Positions 4,547 through 19,858 of a stretch of DNA of 20,285 nt are shown here, in pieces. The stretch lies in the IMG/VR virus record IMGVR_UViG_3300031975_000308, positions 1 through 20,285 of that record; one strand, written 5' to 3'. A program made the translations under genes and the position numbers. This stretch comes from a virus. Every line of letters starts with the position of its first letter. The first letter of the stretch is position 1. The notes beneath the pieces were generated by a model that was not told the origin of the DNA, made no database searches, and was given only the letters and a program-made list of their open reading frames with translations.

Positions 4547-5029
4547 TTATGCAAATGTCCTCAAATATAATGTAGATAAGTCTTGCTTATACATGTCTTC
4601 TACATCATCTATAATAACCCCTTTTGTTTTAGGGTTTAAAAACTTACATACTTGCACCATTATTATGTTGGTATCTGGATATAATTTTTCTATTATAGGC
4701 CTGTATAAATAACGCAATTGTACTTCTGCTATTCTTCTAGATTTTAATTTACATTCTAGTATAATTAAATCTTTGACATCTCCGTGTGGTAAAATTACTA
4801 TGTCAGATTGGCAGTAACCTACGCCCCTTCTGTCTTCATACTGATACCACTGACCATGCAATACATTTTCTGCACCATAAATAGCTTTCATATAATTGGC
4901 TACTCTATTTTCATAAAGCACGCCAGCTCTCTTCACACCTGTCAACCTTGGAGAGGGTATAAATACAGGACGTTCATCGAGAGCTTTCGCCCATCGCAAC
5001 TTACTGAGTACTAAACGTCTTTTCGACAT
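4547..5029 (-). CDS. PD-(D/E)XK family nuclease
   Basis: A 160-residue basic protein with the core of a PD-(D/E)XK nuclease: E40 in the first helix (GVLYENRVANYM), D76 in QSDIVIL, the E92-C-K94 motif in LIILECKLK, and Q104 in the following helix. This fold usually cuts DNA with Mg2+. In phages such single-domain enzymes act as Holliday junction resolvases, as endonucleases or in recombination. The gene overlaps the preceding ATPase gene by 19 bases, and only a distant AAGGG precedes the ATG, so translational coupling is likely. It closes the replication operon, just before the promoter of the reductase. Exact substrate not predictable. Confidence 0.75.
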   Translation of the reverse strand: MSKRRLVLSKLRWAKALDERPVFIPSPRLTGVKRAGVLYENRVANYMKAIYGAENVLHGQWYQYEDRRGVGYCQSDIVILPHGDVKDLIILECKLKSRRIAEVQLRYLYRPIIEKLYPDTNIIMVQVCKFLNPKTKGVIIDDVEDMYKQDLSTLYLRTFA

Positions 5030-6276
5030 GGAAAAACCACATTCCCTTCGACCTTTATGTACCCAGAATCTTCCATAGCCTTGATGGTTTGTTCTAACTC
5101 ACCAGGATTTGGAATCTTTCGTAGCAATTCTCTTTTAAATAATTTCAAAAGCATGTGGCTTCTTCCATTATTAAATAGTGTACCATGTAACCATGTCACC
5201 ATGTCATGTGCAATACGGCCAGTTCTTCCCATACCAAAACCTTCTAAAGCTTTAGGCATTTGTTTCTCCGCCGCAAACATTAATTCTTTTGTAAACTCCC
5301 AATCTTCTAGCATGATCTTGCGCGTGCCCCTCCTTGATGCAGAGACTGCAATAGCTACTTTAATAAAGTGAGATACTCTACGTTGTACATACTCAGACAA
5401 ATGATTATCAGTAGGTTCTGGCGGTATACCAGCTTTGATGTCTTCGTCTACAATTTTAAATGCATCTTCATCAAAAGTCATTGGCCCATACATTTTAGAT
5501 ATATCTGCTAAATCATTACGCAAATTATTGACAGTATTTTCGCTGACTCTTTCTTGTACTAATGATTGTGGTATACGTTCTCCATCATAATAGATAGGTA
5601 ACATACGAGACAATAGTCCTTGAGATCTAGCATCTTCTGGTAAGTTATCCACAAATTGTTCTGGTGTAGCACAAGCTAACCAGTTAAGACATGGGCCTTT
5701 TACAATGTATTCGCCAGATGTTTTAGTCTTGTGGCTGTACTCTGCTTTAGAATCCCACATGTCTGTCATAAACATTTGAAGATATCTCTCGTGTCTGCCC
5801 ATAAATGTACCAAACTCAGAGGTTACTAATGTGATAGACGAGTCGTAGAATTCATCTAAAGCAGGACTAGATAATCGTAAGTCTAGCCTAGTAATCTTTG
5901 TCATGTCCACTGCTAATTTCTCTGGAGTAATTCTATCTTGAATCATATATAAAGGATAATTACGTAGACCATATTGATCTAATCCAGAGTTAAAGTTTTG
6001 ATCATCTTCTGTTGTACCTACTGGTGTGGTCAACCTACTAAACACTTTAGTAAATGGTAAGATTAAACTTACTGATTTGTTACGACCGGGTGGTGCAATT
6101 AATACTACAAATAGATTAGATCTGATATCATAGTTAGCCATTGGATACCATACACGTCTGCCCATCGCACCTGCTACTGCGCTAAGTGCACTCCATTGTG
6201 CAAACGGCTTTGGTATTGGACTGTCTGCAACTGCTTCTACTGAAGCCTTTACAAAGTCTGTATAGTTTCTACTCAT
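5011..6276 (-). CDS. DUF3987-like P-loop ATPase, probable replication helicase
   Basis: A 421-residue protein with a Walker A motif APPGRNKS (61-68) and a Walker B-like strand ITLVTSEFG (148-156). The opening region (FAQWSALSAVAGAMGRR) and overall order resemble DUF3987 proteins, which in phages occupy the place of the replicative helicase or primase-helicase. The C-terminal part (about 340-421) looks like a winged-helix module (LLRKIPNPGELEQTIKAMED, then SGYIKVEGN). No separate primase motif is visible. The start overlaps the end of the polymerase gene by 8 bases (ATGAGTAG) and has only a weak ribosome binding site, consistent with coupling. No DnaB-type helicase is seen elsewhere in the window, so this is the best helicase candidate. 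Confidence 0.72.
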   Translation of the reverse strand: MSRNYTDFVKASVEAVADSPIPKPFAQWSALSAVAGAMGRRVWYPMANYDIRSNLFVVLIAPPGRNKSVSLILPFTKVFSRLTTPVGTTEDDQNFNSGLDQYGLRNYPLYMIQDRITPEKLAVDMTKITRLDLRLSSPALDEFYDSSITLVTSEFGTFMGRHERYLQMFMTDMWDSKAEYSHKTKTSGEYIVKGPCLNWLACATPEQFVDNLPEDARSQGLLSRMLPIYYDGERIPQSLVQERVSENTVNNLRNDLADISKMYGPMTFDEDAFKIVDEDIKAGIPPEPTDNHLSEYVQRRVSHFIKVAIAVSASRRGTRKIMLEDWEFTKELMFAAEKQMPKALEGFGMGRTGRIAHDMVTWLHGTLFNNGRSHMLLKLFKRELLRKIPNPGELEQTIKAMEDSGYIKVEGNVVFPCRKDV

Positions 6277-8361: not shown

Positions 8362-9465
8362 TTATTCCTCTGCTTTGGTACTCTTAGAAAAACTTGTAAG
8401 GTTCTTCCATGCTCCTTCATTAGTATAAATAGATCCCAAGAAACCTAATCCTTTTTCCATTTCTGGCTGGAGAGAATGTTGTGCATGCATGGTGTCATGT
8501 ACAGTTCCTGCTACATCTATTCCGTATTTATAACTTAACCAAGACACATCATAAGTTTGATTCTGTGCTACCTTAGTTATCTTTTTATCTTGTAATAAGT
8601 TAGCTATCTCTTTCCAGATAGTTATCTCTGTAGTGTAATCATAGAATGCTTGAGACTTCTTTGTGATATCTCTGAATGGTATAACCATTGATCGTTTAGG
8701 TGATGGAGCAAATCCTATACAAGTTATCTCCCCACTTGCTGTCTCAATATCAAATGATAAAGGATTGTCCTCACTGTTTTCTTCTCTGCATTCTTTAAAG
8801 AATTGCACAACCTCTTCGTAAGTAGGCTCTATGTATATTTCTCTTTCAGTATTTTCTATGTCTTTAGTTGTAGATTCTTGTACTGCTTTTTTTAAATCAC
8901 TTACTACTGTAGGTCTGAATGAATAGTTTTTAAGAACTGCAAACGGACTGTATGTTGGCATGATCTTGTATGCTCTATTTAATTTGCCCACGTTTGAATA
9001 TGTTAGTGCTCCTCTGTAAGATCCTATCTTGTCTATGTTTGTTAATGCCCACAGACCCAAGCCACCCATTGTAATTATAATGTTAGGATTAAAGTCATTG
9101 ATCTCTTTGTATAGTCTTTCAATATCTTGTTCATAGTCTTTTTTTAAAAATCCGTATTGAGAAGGAGAATAGTTTGACTGCCACTCCCCTTCTTTCTTGA
9201 TAGCCTTATACTCATTCCTCTTATGGAAAAAGAACTGAGCATTTTCTTGTGCTGGCTTCAGTTGAAATGCATGAGTGAGCATAACAGATTGTGCGTCTAT
9301 GCCTGCGAGTGCGCACATGGGATTCAATACTTGCTGTATGCCTCCTGTATTTATTTTGTTAAGTCTAGATTCGGTAGTCGTAGGATATTCTAAAACTATG
9401 CAAATAGAATTCCCAGAATCTGGAATCTGTGACTCAACCCGCTTATGTACTGCGTACTCACTCAT
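8362..9465 (-). CDS. UDG-like domain fused to DNA polymerase 3'-5' exonuclease (motifs I and II)
   Basis: A 367-residue two-domain protein. Residues about 20-190 resemble the uracil-DNA glycosylase superfamily: a GGIQQVLNPM turn (41-50), NIIITMGGLGLWAL (128-141) and TYSPFAVLKN (171-180), though the usual catalytic GEAPG segment is replaced by VLEYPTTTES. Residues about 210-358 are a family A polymerase proofreading domain with motif I SFDIET (D239, E241), motif II NQTYD (N302, D306), and the typical VHDTMHAQHSL and KGLGFLGSIYT segments. It ends just where motif III should follow; that motif is at the start of the gene at 6269-7813. The two proteins together would make one polymerase. No clear ribosome binding site precedes the ATG, 11 bases after the previous stop. 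Confidence 0.85.
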   Translation of the reverse strand: MSEYAVHKRVESQIPDSGNSICIVLEYPTTTESRLNKINTGGIQQVLNPMCALAGIDAQSVMLTHAFQLKPAQENAQFFFHKRNEYKAIKKEGEWQSNYSPSQYGFLKKDYEQDIERLYKEINDFNPNIIITMGGLGLWALTNIDKIGSYRGALTYSNVGKLNRAYKIMPTYSPFAVLKNYSFRPTVVSDLKKAVQESTTKDIENTEREIYIEPTYEEVVQFFKECREENSEDNPLSFDIETASGEITCIGFAPSPKRSMVIPFRDITKKSQAFYDYTTEITIWKEIANLLQDKKITKVAQNQTYDVSWLSYKYGIDVAGTVHDTMHAQHSLQPEMEKGLGFLGSIYTNEGAWKNLTSFSKSTKAEE

Positions 9466-9932: not shown

Positions 9933-10727
9933 CTATTTTGACATTGGTTTTGACAACTTCTTCTTCGCATTCCCTTGAATTGCATCAAACAATTTCGCAA
10001 GATCAAGCTCTGTGTTAGGTTCTAATATGTCTAACGCAGGAACTTTAAGATCCATTCTATGATCCGATACAGTTCTTAGAGAACGTTCTGTGCCTTTGCT
10101 TGAACTCTTAGTGTCCACTCTACAAACACAGTTAAAGTATCGACCCAATTTTGTAGATAGCTTTGAGCCGACACTAGTTGGATATGATTTACTCACACCC
10201 AAATCCCCCTCCATGTACTGCATGTGTGTTGTCACCACAACATTACATGGAACTTCTGAACCAGTTATATATTGTATGAGGTGCTGCACATCTCGTGCCG
10301 CTGTTCCCCATTCTGGTTGAGAAGGTTGTTCTGTTGGTTTCTTGTTATTAAATACTAATGCACTACGCAATGCAGACTCACCCATAAGAGTGAGGCTATC
10401 AATTACAAGCACATCGTCCTTAGTCCAAGTCTTAACAGAACCAAAGTCTTCATCTCCATCTTTCCAATTAGCAATTAGATTTGCCCCCTTACGAAAAGCT
10501 TCCGCCTTACCAATTGGATCTTTAAGAGTTACGTAAGATACACGACTGACTCCTTCTGGAGTTAGCAGGTCTGGTAATATAGATAGACCATCATCGTAAT
10601 CAAGTATACGAAGATTCTTTCCAGCATTAGCTAATGAAGCTAGCGCCGCAGTCTTACCAGATCCACTGTCGCCTACCAGTAATAATTTAGTTACATCAGT
10701 TGATGCGTGTTGTTTAATACTTGCCAT
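9933..10727 (-). CDS. Sak4-like RecA-fold ATPase
   Basis: A 264-residue P-loop ATPase with Walker A GDSGSGKT (19-26) and Walker B DVLVIDS (105-111). The order and size match the Sak4 group of phage single-strand annealing or RecA-like recombinases, which work with a phage ssDNA-binding protein and a Cas4-like nuclease, both present here. It is expected to load on ssDNA during recombination-dependent replication. The start at MASIKQH is chosen because AGGAG lies upstream and the promoter at 10747-10775 ends just before it; the upstream in-frame ATG at 10748 lies inside the -10 element. The C-terminus is lysine-rich. Confidence 0.85.
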   Translation of the reverse strand: MASIKQHASTDVTKLLLVGDSGSGKTAALASLANAGKNLRILDYDDGLSILPDLLTPEGVSRVSYVTLKDPIGKAEAFRKGANLIANWKDGDEDFGSVKTWTKDDVLVIDSLTLMGESALRSALVFNNKKPTEQPSQPEWGTAARDVQHLIQYITGSEVPCNVVVTTHMQYMEGDLGVSKSYPTSVGSKLSTKLGRYFNCVCRVDTKSSSKGTERSLRTVSDHRMDLKVPALDILEPNTELDLAKLFDAIQGNAKKKLSKPMSK

Positions 10728-10746
10728 ATTTTTCTCCTGTGTTTGC

Positions 10747-10775
10747 ATTATACCAAATTAATTGCAATCCGTCAA
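10747..10775 (-). promoter_or_regulatory. Extended -10 promoter of the replication block
   Basis: On the minus strand TTGACG (10770-10775, 5/6) is followed by 17 bases and a perfect TATAAT (10747-10752) with TG in the extended position (TGGTATAAT). The -35 overlaps the stop codon of the 72-aa gene. It would drive the Sak4-like, ssDNA-binding, exonuclease, polymerase and helicase genes with a short leader. Confidence 0.78.
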
Positions 10776-11002: not shown

Positions 11003-11095
11003 TTAAGTTATTGCTGTTATGACTACATAAAGTAAGTAGCCTAGTATAATTAGTCCTGGTAGTAAATCTAAAATTTTATCAATTAGTTTTTTCAT
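11003..11095 (-). CDS. 30-aa membrane peptide
   Basis: A 30-residue peptide, MKKLIDKILDLLPG followed by one hydrophobic helix of about 16 residues. The short basic N-terminus and hydrophobic rest predict a single membrane span. Its ATG overlaps the stop of the Cas4-like gene in an ATGA junction, which supports translation by coupling. Function unknown. Similar tiny membrane peptides recur at 16678-16767 and 246-353. Confidence 0.6.
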   Translation of the reverse strand: MKKLIDKILDLLPGLIILGYLLYVVITAIT

Positions 11096-12084
11096 TCTAG
11101 TTCTACCTCTATTTCTAATTCGTTGGCAGGAAGAGCAACTACATTGTCCTCTTTCCGCAAGTCTTTGTGTACTTCTCTATCAAAGTCTGACTCTACAACT
11201 ATGTGCCTGCGTGAGGGTGCTTCATTGCATACTTCTCTAAATTTACAGCCACCATAATTGCTACATGCAGTAAAGTCAGCAGGATAGTAATTGTCTTTTG
11301 CATACATGTTAGATAAATCTATCTTGTGCATAGAATCTATATACCATTCTTGTATTACCTCATCATTAACTTTAAATACTGCACGTTCAAAGCGTGTAAA
11401 GTTCACACCAGTTTGTGCCGCTTCTACTATGAATCCAACGACAGGTAACTTTAGTATATGTTTTGCCGCCCATAGATATGCATACACTTGATTGTTAGGT
11501 GTAAAGTTTGCAAAGTAATAACTAGTCAAGCCTGTCTTGGTAGTCTTAGTATCTACTACATAAAGTTCGTTGTCTAGTTCTACAACTTTATCTATACGAC
11601 CAGACAATCTTTCACCTGTTACAGAGAAAGGCACTTCAAATCTTTGCTCAAGTGCAGGGTCTCCATCTGGCATAGTAGCTACCTTGATATTGTCTTCCCA
11701 AAACTCTTCTGCTCTCCACACAATAGCACGCATGGTTGCTTCAAGTCCTCGAGCTTTATCTTCGGTGCGTAATAACTCTTCGCCAAACTCTAACAGTATT
11801 AACTTGATAGCATTCTTGACAGACTCATCTTTTGATTTGCCTTCAAATCTACCACGATCTAATTCTTCAAAACCTTCATGAACTGCTGACCCAAAGCCAG
11901 TAGCTGATGAGTATTGTTTAGATTTATAACCTAATAAGTTTTGATAATTATAGTAGCGGGGGCATGATGAGAAAGCAGACAAGCTAGAGGTATCCCATAC
12001 CATTTGTTTAGCTGTTCCATTTTCTTGCCACACATACTTAGGAAAGTGTGGTGCTTCTATATATCCTATACCATCGTCCATCAT
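11092..12084 (-). CDS. Cas4/RecB-like PD-(D/E)XK nuclease with Fe-S cysteines
   Basis: A 330-residue nuclease with the features of Cas4/AddB-type exonucleases. H69 lies in GSAVHEG, D165 in SGRIDKV, D178 and K180 in VVDTKTTK, and Q199 in NNQVYAYLW. Four cysteines placed as in iron-sulfur members of the family are C41 (SCPRYY) and C274, C280, C286 (CSNYGGCKFREVC). Such enzymes trim DNA ends and in phages work with Sak4-type recombinases and an ssDNA-binding protein, both encoded downstream. A clear AGGGGG lies five bases before the ATG. It starts three bases after the 2OG oxygenase stop and overlaps the 30-aa peptide by 4 bases. Confidence 0.88.
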   Translation of the reverse strand: MMDDGIGYIEAPHFPKYVWQENGTAKQMVWDTSSLSAFSSCPRYYNYQNLLGYKSKQYSSATGFGSAVHEGFEELDRGRFEGKSKDESVKNAIKLILLEFGEELLRTEDKARGLEATMRAIVWRAEEFWEDNIKVATMPDGDPALEQRFEVPFSVTGERLSGRIDKVVELDNELYVVDTKTTKTGLTSYYFANFTPNNQVYAYLWAAKHILKLPVVGFIVEAAQTGVNFTRFERAVFKVNDEVIQEWYIDSMHKIDLSNMYAKDNYYPADFTACSNYGGCKFREVCNEAPSRRHIVVESDFDREVHKDLRKEDNVVALPANELEIEVELE

Positions 12085-14914: not shown

Positions 14915-15077
14915 TGTGTTCTCCATATTCTATGTAGGAAGCAGTCTTTCCTACGATTAGTATCCCAAGCCATATAATAGCAAGGGGGTTAGGTAACGAT
15001 AGTACTGCCATTATCGTTAAGAAGTGAAAGAATCCATGAGTGCCTATCCACCCATAAATACTACCAAATGCGTCCAT
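14901..15077 (-). CDS. 58-aa two-helix membrane protein
   Basis: The chosen start MDAFGSIYGWIGTHG gives 58 residues with two likely membrane helices, about 14-28 (FFHFLTIMAVLSLPN) and 31-47 (PLAIIWLGILIVGKTA). A longer frame to 15155 runs through the coding end of the cyclotransferase gene. GGAAAC just before the ATG is a weak ribosome binding site; the 17-base overlap with the cyclotransferase gene suggests coupling. Function unknown. Confidence 0.65.
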   Translation of the reverse strand: MDAFGSIYGWIGTHGFFHFLTIMAVLSLPNPLAIIWLGILIVGKTASYIEYGEHNAKK

Positions 15078-15447
15078 GTTTCCATTCTTTCGTGTTGTCC
15101 GTAACGATAATAAAATCATCGGATAGATTAATATCTGGCTCGTCAGTATACACATAGATTGTAGCTTCTATGTCGTCTGGCACGAGCTTCACTTGGACAG
15201 GCTCATAACCTGCACCAATCTCTATACTATTGGTTATTTGAAAGACTCCTTCATCAACCTCATATAATTCTCCTTTAATACTGTACCCATTTTCTTTCGG
15301 CACTACGATAGGAAAGATTCCATTACCGTAATCAAGTATATCAAAGTTGGGGGCAGTATGGTACTCGCCTTTGTACTTCTGTCCATCGAGTATTCCATTC
15401 AACCTATGCCCCCTCTTTAGTGTGCCATATACAAATAGATTTGTCAT
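15061..15447 (-). CDS. Gamma-glutamylcyclotransferase-like (AIG2/GGCT fold) protein
   Basis: The 128 residues carry the GGCT-fold signature VYGTLKRG (6-13), a GIFPIVV strand, GELYEV (59-64), and a candidate catalytic Glu, E76, in SIEIGAGYEPVQV. These enzymes release gamma-glutamyl groups as 5-oxoproline, or cleave gamma-glutamylamines. Phage copies are known to accompany amidoligases and class II amidotransferases, both of which lie upstream in this window, so it may trim or edit a gamma-glutamyl or amide product of that pair. The start overlaps the previous stop (ATGA); no strong ribosome binding site is visible. Confidence 0.85.
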   Translation of the reverse strand: MTNLFVYGTLKRGHRLNGILDGQKYKGEYHTAPNFDILDYGNGIFPIVVPKENGYSIKGELYEVDEGVFQITNSIEIGAGYEPVQVKLVPDDIEATIYVYTDEPDINLSDDFIIVTDNTKEWKHGRIW

Positions 15448-16677: not shown

Positions 16678-16767
16678 TTATATTAATAATATAGTAGCTA
16701 TGACAACCACAACTACTTCCCACATCTCTGCGTCTAGCATAGCTGTAAAGAATAGTACATCAATCAT
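16678..16767 (-). CDS. 29-aa membrane peptide
   Basis: A 29-residue peptide, MIDVLFFTAMLDAEMW followed by a valine/isoleucine-rich hydrophobic tail (EVVVVVIATILLI). Its ATG overlaps the stop of the preceding membrane protein in an ATGA junction. It probably inserts in the inner membrane and may partner the 72-aa protein. Function unknown. Confidence 0.55.
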   Translation of the reverse strand: MIDVLFFTAMLDAEMWEVVVVVIATILLI

Positions 16768-16982
16768 TGTTCTATTCTCTCTAGCTTATATACTTCAACG
16801 GGTATTGTGTCAACAGTATTTATTATTTCGGGCATTTCTTTTTCAGTTGTCATGTTGGTATAGTTGACATGAGTATCTCTGTTTAACTCTAGCGTGACTG
16901 CAAATATTGCAACCAAAGCCCATGCCCACAGCATACCTAAGACAAACCAAACGGCTACCCATAATTTATATCCTTTGTTCAT
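16764..16982 (-). CDS. 72-aa single-span membrane protein
   Basis: Encodes 72 residues with one strong membrane helix at about 8-30 (LWVAVWFVLGMLWAWALVAI) after a short basic N-terminus, then a polar C-terminal domain of about 40 residues, probably outside the cytoplasm. AGGAG lies nine bases before the ATG. It is the first gene after the long structured leader and the promoter at 17237-17264. Function unknown. Confidence 0.7.
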   Translation of the reverse strand: MNKGYKLWVAVWFVLGMLWAWALVAIFAVTLELNRDTHVNYTNMTTEKEMPEIINTVDTIPVEVYKLERIEQ

Positions 16983-17003
16983 AGTTATATTCTCCTAAGT
17001 TGT

Positions 17004-17065
17004 GGGGGTAGTAAGGTATAATCAGCTAACGATTTCACTCGCTTGGTAATTTATCCTTGCCCCCC
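17004..17065 (-). promoter_or_regulatory. Long imperfect hairpin in the leader of the 72-aa gene
   Basis: On the minus strand GGGGG pairs with CCCCC at the base, then AAGG with CCUU, UAA with UUA, and AGCGA with UCGUU around a GUGAAA loop, separated by small internal loops. It ends ten bases before the AGGAG of the 72-aa gene, so it could control translation or stabilise the message. Confidence 0.5.
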
Positions 17066-17070
17066 TGATT

Positions 17071-17134
17071 CATACTAACCGATAGGCTCGTAGTTAGTGG
17101 TCGGCTTTCAACATACTCACCGATAGGGTGTGAG
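17071..17134 (-). repeat. 16-base direct repeat forming two related hairpins
   Basis: On the + strand CATACTAACCGATAGG (17071-17086) and CATACTCACCGATAGG (17112-17127) differ at one base and lie 41 bases apart. Each forms a hairpin: ACTAAC/GTTAGT (17074-17098) and CTCAC/GTGAG (17116-17134). The single difference is matched by a change in the opposite arm (A-T becomes C-G), so pairing is kept. Confidence 0.65.
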
Positions 17135-17236
17135 AAAATAAACACATAAACCTTTCTCACTTCAGTTCTCTTTGGCTCTTATCTCCTGTACAGTTCGACT
17201 TTTTCCACTCGACCAAATGTGTTTACTGAATATTGT

Positions 17237-17264
17237 ATTATATCATATTGGTATTTAATTGCAA
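17237..17264 (-). promoter_or_regulatory. Extended -10 promoter in the non-coding hub
   Basis: On the minus strand TTGCAA (17259-17264, 4/6) is followed by 16 bases and TATAAT (17237-17242) with TG in the extended position (TGATATAAT). It would transcribe the small-gene run with a structured leader of about 245 bases. The left repeat array begins about 18 bases upstream of the -35, where an activator could bind. Confidence 0.6.
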
Positions 17265-17282
17265 TAGTTTTCTACACTACTG

Positions 17283-17321
17283 AACACCGCTAGATCACCG
17301 AATGAACACGTATGGTCACGA
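17283..17321. repeat. Left array of four phased 7-mers
   Basis: On the + strand AACACCG (17283), ATCACCG (17294), AACACGT (17305) and GTCACGA (17315) are spaced 11, 11 and 10 bases apart. All share the core CAC(C/G). The spacing is one helical turn, so a protein could bind along one DNA face. A mirror-image array is at 17446-17484. Confidence 0.75.
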
Positions 17322-17380
17322 TTTCGGGGAGACCTACCCCCACACCCTTATAATATACGATCATTATTATATATATATTT

Positions 17381-17401
17381 ACTATATATAGTATATATAG
17401 T
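17381..17401. repeat. 21-bp A+T-rich palindrome
   Basis: ACTATATATA-G-TATATATAGT is perfectly symmetric around one base. It lies inside a longer A+T tract (about 17347-17403) near the middle between the two repeat arrays, where duplex melting would be easiest. Confidence 0.65.
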
Positions 17402-17411
17402 TAGGTATAAC

Positions 17412-17440
17412 ATACTAGAGGCTTTGGACACCCCTAGTAT
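17412..17440. terminator. Strong hairpin after the amidotransferase gene, possible terminator
   Basis: On the minus strand ATACTAGGGG pairs with CCTCTAGTAT (ten pairs, one G-U) around a nine-base loop. It lies 48 bases after the amidotransferase stop. No U-run follows, so it is not a standard intrinsic terminator; it could pause transcription or protect the 3' end. Confidence 0.4.
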
Positions 17441-17445
17441 AAGAT

Positions 17446-17484
17446 TCGTGACGTATCGTGTTCTATCGGTGTTCACTCGGTGTT
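17446..17484. repeat. Right array of four phased 7-mers, mirror image
   Basis: Read on the minus strand from 17484: AACACCG, AACACCG, AACACGA, GTCACGA with spacers of 4, 4 and 3 bases, the same order and spacing as the left array. The 7-mers are highly conserved (26 of 28 positions) while the spacers are not (3 of 11). It ends 3 bases before the amidotransferase stop codon. Confidence 0.75.
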
Positions 17485-17487
17485 ATA

Positions 17488-18405
17488 CTATTTGTTGCCT
17501 CGATTGTCGTCAAGGTTTGACAAACCCCAGATCCATTCGGCAGTACCGAGAGGATTCAGTTCGACTAGATCAAGTATATCCTCTTGAGATGCCCCCAAGA
17601 AGTCTTTGTCTGTCAATAACTCATCTTCTGGTTGAGCTAGATCAACAGATGTCTCGGCATATGTTCTACCATATCTATCTTTTGGTTGGTCAGTATCCCA
17701 ATCCCATGAATCATCATAAGAGAAGTCATACTGATATGATCTGTCGTTGTAGGCATAGCCGTTTCCATAGTTGCCATAAACCACGTTAGGAACTTTCTTG
17801 CCTTTGTTGATGTCATAGTTGAAGCCTACCCCACGATTGATAGAATAGGTATTTGATACCCAACCTACACCAGATACTTCTTTGCCTTGTTGAGGATTCA
17901 CGATGGTGAACTCTTTGGTTTTGCCATCGAGGAATACCATCTTGTCAGTACCTATTGTCTCGGCTAACATATCTTGCCATTCAACATTGTATAACATAGT
18001 AGGATTGTGAGCCAGTTGAGGTCGCAGTATCCACTTGACAAATTGATGGGTGTCAGACTTGTTATCATCAATCATTGGTGTAGGTAATCTTGCTCCATTA
18101 TGCATTACCCATAAGTCTCTACCATGTTCTTTTGCATTTAGAACTTGGAAGGGGTGTGATAGTGATCGAGTTGTCTCACCTTCAGTAGTAAATCTGAAGT
18201 GAATACCCATTGGTGTATCTAAATCTTTGTAGATATCCCACACTTTAGTAATATCTTTGAAAGTCTTGGGTACAATTTTGTGTGTGTGTACCTTGCCATT
18301 GTTGTAGAACATGACACCAAAGCCATCACTGTTATTTTGGTAGGCACATTCCATCAAGTCAATGTCTACTTTTTTTGGTTCATTTGTTTGTATTATTAAG
18401 CACAT
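17488..18405 (-). CDS. Class II glutamine amidotransferase
   Basis: A 305-residue protein with the Ntn-type class II glutaminase domain: C2 directly after Met as nucleophile, NNSDGFGVMFYNNG (24-37), HFRFTTEG (69-76), HPF (84-86), MHNG (101-104) and SDTH (117-120). It should release ammonia from glutamine. The amidoligase just upstream is the likely acceptor of that ammonia. From about residue 195 the sequence leaves the domain and turns into a Tyr/Asp/Gly-rich low-complexity region (210-245) and an acidic tail (255-305), perhaps for binding the ligase. AGGAG lies about nine bases before the ATG. It shares the transcript from 19923-19951. Confidence 0.9.
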   Translation of the reverse strand: MCLIIQTNEPKKVDIDLMECAYQNNSDGFGVMFYNNGKVHTHKIVPKTFKDITKVWDIYKDLDTPMGIHFRFTTEGETTRSLSHPFQVLNAKEHGRDLWVMHNGARLPTPMIDDNKSDTHQFVKWILRPQLAHNPTMLYNVEWQDMLAETIGTDKMVFLDGKTKEFTIVNPQQGKEVSGVGWVSNTYSINRGVGFNYDINKGKKVPNVVYGNYGNGYAYNDRSYQYDFSYDDSWDWDTDQPKDRYGRTYAETSVDLAQPEDELLTDKDFLGASQEDILDLVELNPLGTAEWIWGLSNLDDNRGNK

Positions 18406-18433
18406 ATTATTATCTCCTATATTTAGTTAAGAT

Positions 18434-19858
18434 TTAACCATTGACAACATTGTCAATAGCTTCGTTGATCTCGTTAGATACTAGACGATTAGGTCTGCTA
18501 TCTTTGAGATATCCTTTGCGAACAAACCACTCATTGATGTATGGAAAGTCTGCTCTGTTTCTTGGTAGTTTAAACCACTTCAAGAAATCTCTATAATGCA
18601 ATTCGTTGAAACTGCATTGTTGCACATATTCACCAAGGGCGAATGAGAATTCTAATACTCTCAATATGCCATTCTTGGTTGCGTTGCCTCTGAATATTCT
18701 CAACTCGATTGAACTAGCATGAGCAGTATTTACGGCTTCATACTTATTGTAATCTCGTTGATTGCCGTCAGTAATCTTTTTCTGTTTGAACTTGGCATAA
18801 TCGTTAGCCTTGCGACCTGCGACTGCCTCAATAAAATTCCTGTTGACTTCATCATTGATAATTACTTGTAGTTTACCAATTTGTGATGAAGTAAACGAGG
18901 CTCTATTGAGGTGTACATGAATACCACAAGTATCAGTATTCCATGCCTTAACGTATGTATTGCCATCATTATCAGTCCAATTATGCCATGAGAATAATTT
19001 ATCTAGTTGCTGTTTGTGATATGCTAGGGTACATGGAGCAGTCACCATCTCAAACCCATTACCTAGTGAGCCATCACCTTTGAACATACAGTATCTACCA
19101 TCAAATAAATCATCAATCGTCTGAGGAAAATCATCTGGACAATTATTTCTGGCTTCCCATTCTGCCTCTAAACCACCTAACAAAGTCTTGCGAGTTATTC
19201 GTGGCTCGTGAGGTAATGACATCTTGGAAAGTCTTTCCATGACATCATAATCATAGCGGTACACCCCTTCAAAATTTGAATCGTGATCCTCATCATCATC
19301 ATCATATTCTGAATAATCGCAGTCCTCATTGTGAACATATTGATCTGATCTATCATGGTAATAATAATCTGAATCTCTACAATCAAGGCATACAATTTGA
19401 TCGCCACCATAAACTGAAACTGAATCCTCATCTGCCATAGTGACACCGCAATTTTCACAAGAATTTAACTCAAATAATTCTGCTTTCTCATCATTAACTT
19501 GATCTAAAAAACATTCCATAAAGCGATAGAATAATTTTATATCTCGATTTTCTAGTATTTGATTATAGCGAGTTAGTTTATATTGAAAATTGTGTAATTT
19601 ATTTTCAAATCTTGTCCATTCGTGATAAGTGAAATATCTATTTGTAAACATATCACAGAAATCAAAATCAATTACATCATCAACATTGATATAATCGTTA
19701 TCCCAATCACGATATTTTCGTTTGGCTTTGTTGAACTCTTTGTAAAATCTTGCAAGCCATTTAGTATAAGTAGATCGGCTTGGATTTTCAAACATACAAT
19801 CATCAAGTAATAATCTATTATATGTTCTCATTACTTGGTAAGGACTTTTAGTAAACAT
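18434..19858 (-). CDS. Amidoligase (COOH-NH2 ligase family) with internal zinc ribbon
   Basis: A 474-residue protein. The C-terminal domain (about 225-440) shows the glutamine-synthetase-like amidoligase motifs: GLEAEWE (229-235), KGDGSLGNGFEMVTAP (260-275), CGIHVHLNR (311-319), KYEAVN (372-377) and IELRIFRG (384-391). Such enzymes use ATP to join a carboxyl to an amine. Residues 134-160 hold a zinc ribbon (CENC ... CLDC), followed by a very acidic stretch (about 163-196). The N-terminal 130 residues are helical and basic/aromatic. GGGAG lies nine bases before the ATG. It forms an operon with the amidotransferase, and a cyclotransferase lies further along; this trio is known from other phages. 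The target is unknown: a host or phage protein, peptidoglycan peptide or small molecule. Confidence 0.88.
   Translation of the reverse strand: MFTKSPYQVMRTYNRLLLDDCMFENPSRSTYTKWLARFYKEFNKAKRKYRDWDNDYINVDDVIDFDFCDMFTNRYFTYHEWTRFENKLHNFQYKLTRYNQILENRDIKLFYRFMECFLDQVNDEKAELFELNSCENCGVTMADEDSVSVYGGDQIVCLDCRDSDYYYHDRSDQYVHNEDCDYSEYDDDDEDHDSNFEGVYRYDYDVMERLSKMSLPHEPRITRKTLLGGLEAEWEARNNCPDDFPQTIDDLFDGRYCMFKGDGSLGNGFEMVTAPCTLAYHKQQLDKLFSWHNWTDNDGNTYVKAWNTDTCGIHVHLNRASFTSSQIGKLQVIINDEVNRNFIEAVAGRKANDYAKFKQKKITDGNQRDYNKYEAVNTAHASSIELRIFRGNATKNGILRVLEFSFALGEYVQQCSFNELHYRDFLKWFKLPRNRADFPYINEWFVRKGYLKDSRPNRLVSNEINEAIDNVVNG

Follow-up and report, generated by a model that had tools for sequence, protein, structure and literature searches.

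The non-coding region between positions 17283 and 17484 of the DNA analysed here (the window, the 20,285-bp record of a marine phage to which no taxonomy is assigned) contains two arrays of four 7-mers that face each other across an A+T-rich core, next to a promoter that is directed away from them. We consider it likely that this element constitutes the single replication origin of the phage, with a melting core placed between two initiator arrays and beside a promoter; that replication starts here is inferred, as there are no data on replication starts, on protein binding or on coverage. The features of the region are the following.

16983 to 17236, minus strand: conserved non-coding leader of the promoter's transcript, an adjoining feature and not part of the origin proper
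17237 to 17264, minus strand: outward-directed promoter of sigma-70-like type, TTGCAA-N16-TATAAT, separated from the outer end of the promoter-side array by 18 bp
17283 to 17321, plus strand: promoter-side array, four 7-mers with steps of 11, 11 and 10 bp, kept in nine lineages
Plus strand, 7-mers of the promoter-side array: AACACCG (17283 to 17289), ATCACCG (17294 to 17300), AACACGT (17305 to 17311) and GTCACGA (17315 to 17321)
17322 to 17445, no strand: core between the arrays, 124 bp, 68% A+T overall, with a very A+T-rich middle
17349 to 17398, no strand: least stable 50-bp stretch of the window and proposed DNA unwinding element; contains TACTATATATAGTA
17380 to 17393: perfect 14-bp palindrome TACTATATATAGTA, inside the least stable stretch, imperfect over about 26 bp
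17446 to 17484, minus strand: gene-side array, mirror image of the promoter-side array
Minus strand, 7-mers of the gene-side array: AACACCG (17484 to 17478), AACACCG (17473 to 17467), AACACGA (17462 to 17456) and GTCACGA (17452 to 17446)
17488 to 18405, minus strand: class II glutamine amidotransferase-like gene, used as flanking marker, its end 3 bp from the element

A 505-bp intergenic region separates the amidotransferase-like gene from a 72-aa gene (16764 to 16982), and the element takes up its right-hand portion; the recognisable genes surrounding the element are all directed leftwards. The amidotransferase-like gene lies close to genes for a gamma-glutamyl cyclotransferase (15061 to 15447) and an amidoligase-like protein (18434 to 19858); the three may form a peptide-ligation set, with the amidotransferase and amidoligase matches falling below the Pfam cut-offs.

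The original prediction, made from the letters of the window alone, had described two facing arrays of four 7-mers, and both the sites and their coordinates proved to be correct. A hand count likewise reproduced the predicted match between the arrays, which is 26 of 28 positions for the 7-mers and 3 of 11 for the spacers. The 21-bp A+T palindrome that had been placed near the dyad is indeed located there, its centre (17386.5) being 3 bp away from that of the arrays (17383.5), but its length has to be revised, to 14 bp for the perfect palindrome and to about 26 bp for the imperfect one. In a motif-blind scan, which looks for any three 7-mers repeated at a constant period and opposed by a like set on the opposite strand, the window reached a score of 42, and the maximum in 60 Markov shuffles of the window was 34 when all periods were tried; at period 11, these shuffles gave a mean of 30.1 and a maximum of 32. 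The element is present in a single copy in the long genomes G001, G010 and G011, where it is the sole place scoring above the shuffle range.

The arrays are conserved among relatives. A search with the amidotransferase protein returned L001-L007 at 80-100% identity, which have all kept the arrays, and L008-L016 at about 55%, without arrays at the corresponding place; L026 and L028 were added by exact-pattern scans of IMG/VR. Single pattern matches in L021, L023, L024, L025 and L027 were rejected, being one-sided tandem repeats without mirror arrays. Aligning seven distinct close-relative sequences of the 202-bp element required no indels, and the invariant columns amount to 48 of 56 in the sites, 9 of 22 in the array spacers and 84 of 124 in the core, the corresponding mean pairwise differences being 7%, 31% and 15%. 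Equal divergence of spacers and 7-mers among relatives had been named as an outcome that would refute the reading, and it is not what is seen.

Further relatives were fetched by a PD-(D/E)XK nuclease search (56-60%) and a Sak4 alignment search (about 80%). Recovery of the arrays at the corresponding locus of related phages had been proposed as a check, and a de novo motif-blind scan found the element in the same position in nine lineages (A to I), the most distant of which retain about 56-59% identity in a protein of the replication operon. Besides lineage A, these are:

Lineage B: L068, L079, L080, L082, L088 and L089
Lineage C: L071, L072 and L076
Lineage D: L098, L099, L101 and L103
Lineage E: L105
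Lineage F: L134-L136 and L138
Lineage G: L163
Lineage H: L168
Lineage I: L172

The flanking order is kept as well: amidoligase and amidotransferase come first, followed in B-E and G-I by a 230-270 aa gene, and then by the element, a small ORF and a 161-aa homologue; the amidoligase is not visible in L172, whose contig starts within the amidotransferase gene. The 230-270 aa gene (L079:4923-5657, L101:5048-5830 and similar) has no homologue in the window; its end either reaches the element's first 7-mer or lies immediately in front of it, and in some cases the stop codon overlaps this 7-mer. The unit itself is AACACCG in A and B, has drifted to AATACCG in C and F and to ATACCGA in D, and takes weaker forms in E, G, H and I; this drift runs broadly in parallel in both arrays of each genome. 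The match between left and right arrays is 0.74 within a genome and 0.65 across lineages (permutation p about 0.0003), a result that is only suggestive, as the sites were chosen by eye and the lineages are not independent. With sites better conserved than spacers, and nine lineages carrying the element, one feature of iteron origins, phased direct repeats under selection as binding sites, is met.

A second feature of such origins, an adjacent A+T-rich DNA unwinding element, is met at the level of sequence, unwinding itself being inferred. Nearest-neighbour calculations placed the least stable 30-bp stretch and the least stable 50-bp stretch between the arrays in 13 of 13 contigs, namely the window, G001 (57.5 kb), G002, G010 (59 kb), G011 (50 kb), Kuura and seven others, one for each of the lineages B-E and G-I. 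The core has a fixed length of 124 bp in lineage A and measures 98 to about 145 bp elsewhere, with boundaries set by eye. In lineage D, small indels within the A+T tract give elements of 187, 189 or 191 bp. Because inter-array distances vary in this way, the arrays do not lie on a fixed helical face across lineages, and the indels of lineage D are more readily accommodated by a melting core than by a rigid inter-array loop. In lineages B-E (for instance L082 and L071), each array is bordered on its inner edge by a homopolymer run, of G at the gene-side array and of C at the promoter-side array; these runs (GGGGGCA and TGCCCCC in lineage B) bracket the A+T core and possibly form a nested dyad.

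The element is linked to a particular set of replication genes, which in the window are the following.

5011 to 6276, minus strand: DUF3987 protein, 421 aa, predicted replicative helicase/primase with a C-terminal winged helix
6269 to 7837, minus strand: family A DNA polymerase (PolA), 522 aa; a separate protein carries the 3'-5' exonuclease
8362 to 9465, minus strand: UDG-like plus 3'-5' exonuclease protein, 367 aa, common to Kuura
9933 to 10748, minus strand: Sak4-like AAA ATPase, 271 aa, common to Kuura
11092 to 12084, minus strand: PD-(D/E)XK nuclease, 330 aa, common to Kuura

The nearest phage match of the polymerase (35%) is Caulobacter phage Kuura, and phmmer comparisons showed that PolA, the UDG/exonuclease protein, the PD-(D/E)XK nuclease, Sak4 and DUF3987 are the only early proteins detectably common to Kuura and the window. 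The best facing-array match in Kuura consists of GGGCAGT units with 10-bp steps at 43046-43248 (203 bp) and scores 42, where 20 shuffles gave no more than 36; the A-tract flanked by these arrays is where the 43.8-kb genome of Kuura is least stable. The region 42973-43334 of Kuura (L111), in which the facing GGGCAGT arrays surround the A-tract and TTACATATGTAA, is thus a candidate origin in a named phage. No close relative was available for testing the conservation of the Kuura element, and in G009, a 32-kb relative of Kuura, the element was not seen, the contig probably stopping short of that region.

It had been stated that the reading would be refuted if related phages lacked the 7-mers while keeping the flanking genes. 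This is partly what we find, since G003, G004 and L008-L016 keep the amidotransferase gene and have no arrays; in G003 and G004, however, the replisome has been replaced too. These two, the only array-less carriers of the amidotransferase gene for which the rest of the genome could be read, share the amidoligase-amidotransferase neighbourhood and encode a different polymerase (577 and 576 aa) and a primase-helicase-like protein of 557 and 550 aa, labels that come from reading the ORFs and not from a profile search. Loss of the arrays together with replacement of the replisome fits an origin. Phage HTVC027P shares the terminase (40%) and has its own annotated primase, helicase and 650-aa PolA. 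No facing arrays above the shuffle null were present in these three genomes with other replisomes. The scan also found none in the more distant carriers of PolA and DUF3987, Tiera, EBPR podovirus 3, 119X and Mel-JY34, and the facing-array architecture is therefore not general to DUF3987 phages; this absence counts against the origin reading.

Which protein binds the arrays can only be inferred. We infer that the binder is phage-encoded, and our leading candidate is the DUF3987 helicase, acting as initiator through its C-terminal winged helix, for which no binding data exist. It ranks first because it is one of the five proteins common to Kuura. DUF3987 domains have been described as predicted helicases of mobile-element replication (PMC5862659), and the PHROGs label of the family is primase/helicase. 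The full-length AlphaFold model was poor (pLDDT 45), so that only the C-terminal domain was used, whose 81 residues were modelled as a winged helix (pLDDT 82). Foldseek gave weak similarity of this domain to the winged-helix domains of MCM proteins, the best match being the MCM4 chain of the human replisome (E 0.007); this resemblance between predicted and known structure is at the level of the fold only. Counting against DUF3987, its presumed recognition helix is nearly invariant while the 7-mer motif drifts. A second-rank candidate for the array binder is the HTH-metallophosphoesterase encoded at 811-2040, which we place below DUF3987 because it is not among the early proteins of Kuura matched by phmmer. 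This 409-aa protein, which occurs in most lineages, matches phage exonuclease and DNA repair families and has a Fis-like HTH at its N-terminus.

If the element is an origin, a phage-encoded initiator would bind the helically phased 7-mers in both arrays and form a nucleoprotein filament on each side, directed inwards to the A+T core. The resulting strain would open this core, where the DNA of the genome is least stable, and helicase and polymerase would then be loaded there. Transcription from the adjacent outward promoter would probably assist this process, or may be regulated by the same protein.

The promoter is also the starting point for the principal competing explanation. Among promoter-like sequences within 16700-18500 it scores best (10/12, with TG), but matches of this kind are no more numerous there than expected by chance, and its support comes from conservation: an outward TTGACA-like/TATAAT-like pair adjoins the promoter-side array in almost all lineages, and was not recognised in L135. 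Read by hand, the gap between array edge and -35 falls into two classes that differ by about one helical turn, a short one of 4-7 bp (B, C, E and H) and a long one of 15-19 bp (A, D, F, G and I). This spacing is compatible with an initiator that also controls the promoter or with a pure regulator, and the near-constant helical phase, being suited to transcription control as well, counts against the origin. The element could accordingly be a control platform, on which RNA polymerase is touched by a regulator sitting on the promoter-side array, while DNA looping to the far array makes the complex stronger. Its 7-bp direct repeats with 4-bp spacers upstream of a promoter have the geometry of OmpR/PhoB-family boxes, shared by those of PhoP (PMC4832192). 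Here, however, the motif is different, the arrays form a mirror-image pair around a melting core, and no regulator gene was recognised: Pfam profiles identified no response regulator among 30 window proteins, although a host regulator, or one encoded elsewhere in the genome, is not excluded. Nor did the PhoB box, the only one tested, match at the element. A control platform also fits poorly with the one copy per long genome, which leaves no second target promoter, with a core that is the contig's stability minimum in every case, with array-to-array distances that shift by non-integral helical turns, and with a promoter that is already near consensus. We regard a regulator array, which the original prediction had named as its alternative, as rather unlikely; it cannot be excluded, and one element could combine both roles, but it is less supported than the iteron-type origin, which, without being proven, rests on the nine lineages, on Kuura and on the stability minimum.

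Two further explanations deserve mention. Repeats with an 11-bp period are required by ParR of plasmid R1, whose parC consists of two groups of about 11-bp repeats flanking a promoter (PMC9426499), and one can imagine a partition-type site at which an adaptor on the phased repeats links the DNA to an anchor or a filament. In R1, however, the par-gene promoter lies between the groups, and here it lies outside the pair; neither a ParM actin-like ATPase nor a ribbon-helix-helix (RHH) ParR adaptor was recognised among the scanned window proteins (the rest of the genome was outside the profile scan), no lysogeny gene was recognised in the window, and a melting core would not be expected, all of which makes a partition site highly improbable. 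We give hardly any credence to a packaging or recombination site (pac/cos or an attachment site), at which the 7-mers would be the arm sites of a terminase or recombinase. The element does lie a few kb from a small terminase gene (named from its sequence) and from the divergence point in several lineages, but in L101 the distance to this gene is about 4.5 kb with several genes between, no integrase was recognised in the window, and the element is absent where the terminase is related but the replisome different.

The leader transcribed from the promoter has features of its own. In lineages A and F only, it contains a covarying hairpin and a pseudoknot to the hairpin loop, two 8-bp helices with 16 pairs in which 104 of 104 cells are paired and four pairs have changed on both sides. 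None of 500 shuffles reached its covariation score; the helices were picked by eye from these sequences, which biases the slid controls towards them. No Rfam family matched the window or leader, and a tRNA search of the window gave no match. We regard the leader as a candidate new structured RNA. It is also found downstream of the element in L026, L134, L135 and L136; L050-L053 matched the pattern in surroundings unlike the leader and were taken as unrelated. A tRNA-Cys (GCA) gene lies within the leader at L026:2835-2908 (plus strand) and L028:12401-12474 (minus strand), where the window has unrelated sequence.

Returning to the origin, the known systems closest in kind are the iteron origins of plasmids and lambdoid phages, bound by Rep or O, in which direct-repeat initiator sites lie beside an A+T-rich unwinding element (PMC4980987, PMC4081077). 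In contrast to these, two arrays of short repeats (7-mers with an 11-bp period) face each other across the core here, no Rep or O homologue was recognised, and the phage has its own PolA/DUF3987/Sak4 module. The PLE satellite of Vibrio cholerae has RepA iterons in a phage-related non-coding region which is needed for replication and whose repeats converge on an A-rich centre (PMC7145576); its initiator, however, is of the RepA_N family, of which no member was recognised here, and each PLE iteron is semi-palindromic. In our view, the element would function in the manner of an iteron origin that has an unwinding element; it shows the two features of such origins that can be read from sequence, while initiator binding and the start of replication remain to be shown.

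GC skew, another proposed check, gave no clean switch. In the co-directional early genes of 11 of 11 genomes, the coding-strand skew at four-fold sites has lower values upstream of the element than downstream of it, but the counts per gene are small and the structural genes do not show the pattern of a leading-strand switch at this place; we therefore do not take skew as proof of an origin. The element contains no DnaA box (TTWTNCACA), the single match in the window being at 5645. Host DnaA boxes are common near iteron-type origins, though not universal.

Literature searches found no origin described for a replisome of PolA with a separate exonuclease, DUF3987 and Sak4, and found DUF3987 only as a predicted helicase. 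It is conceivable, though at present speculative, that the element represents an undescribed type of phage origin, in which mirror arrays of 11-bp-phased 7-mers surround the melting minimum of the genome, the DUF3987 helicase is itself the initiator, and the whole travels as one unit with the split-PolA/DUF3987/Sak4 module among phages that otherwise have no relationship, for example the marine phages studied here and Caulobacter phage Kuura. Both the proposed origin and its initiator are directly testable, given the compact size of the element (about 200 bp), the ranking of an initiator candidate and the further example in Kuura, a named phage of Caulobacter; facing phased arrays on the global stability minimum suggest a rule by which genomes of uncultured viruses may be scanned for origins.
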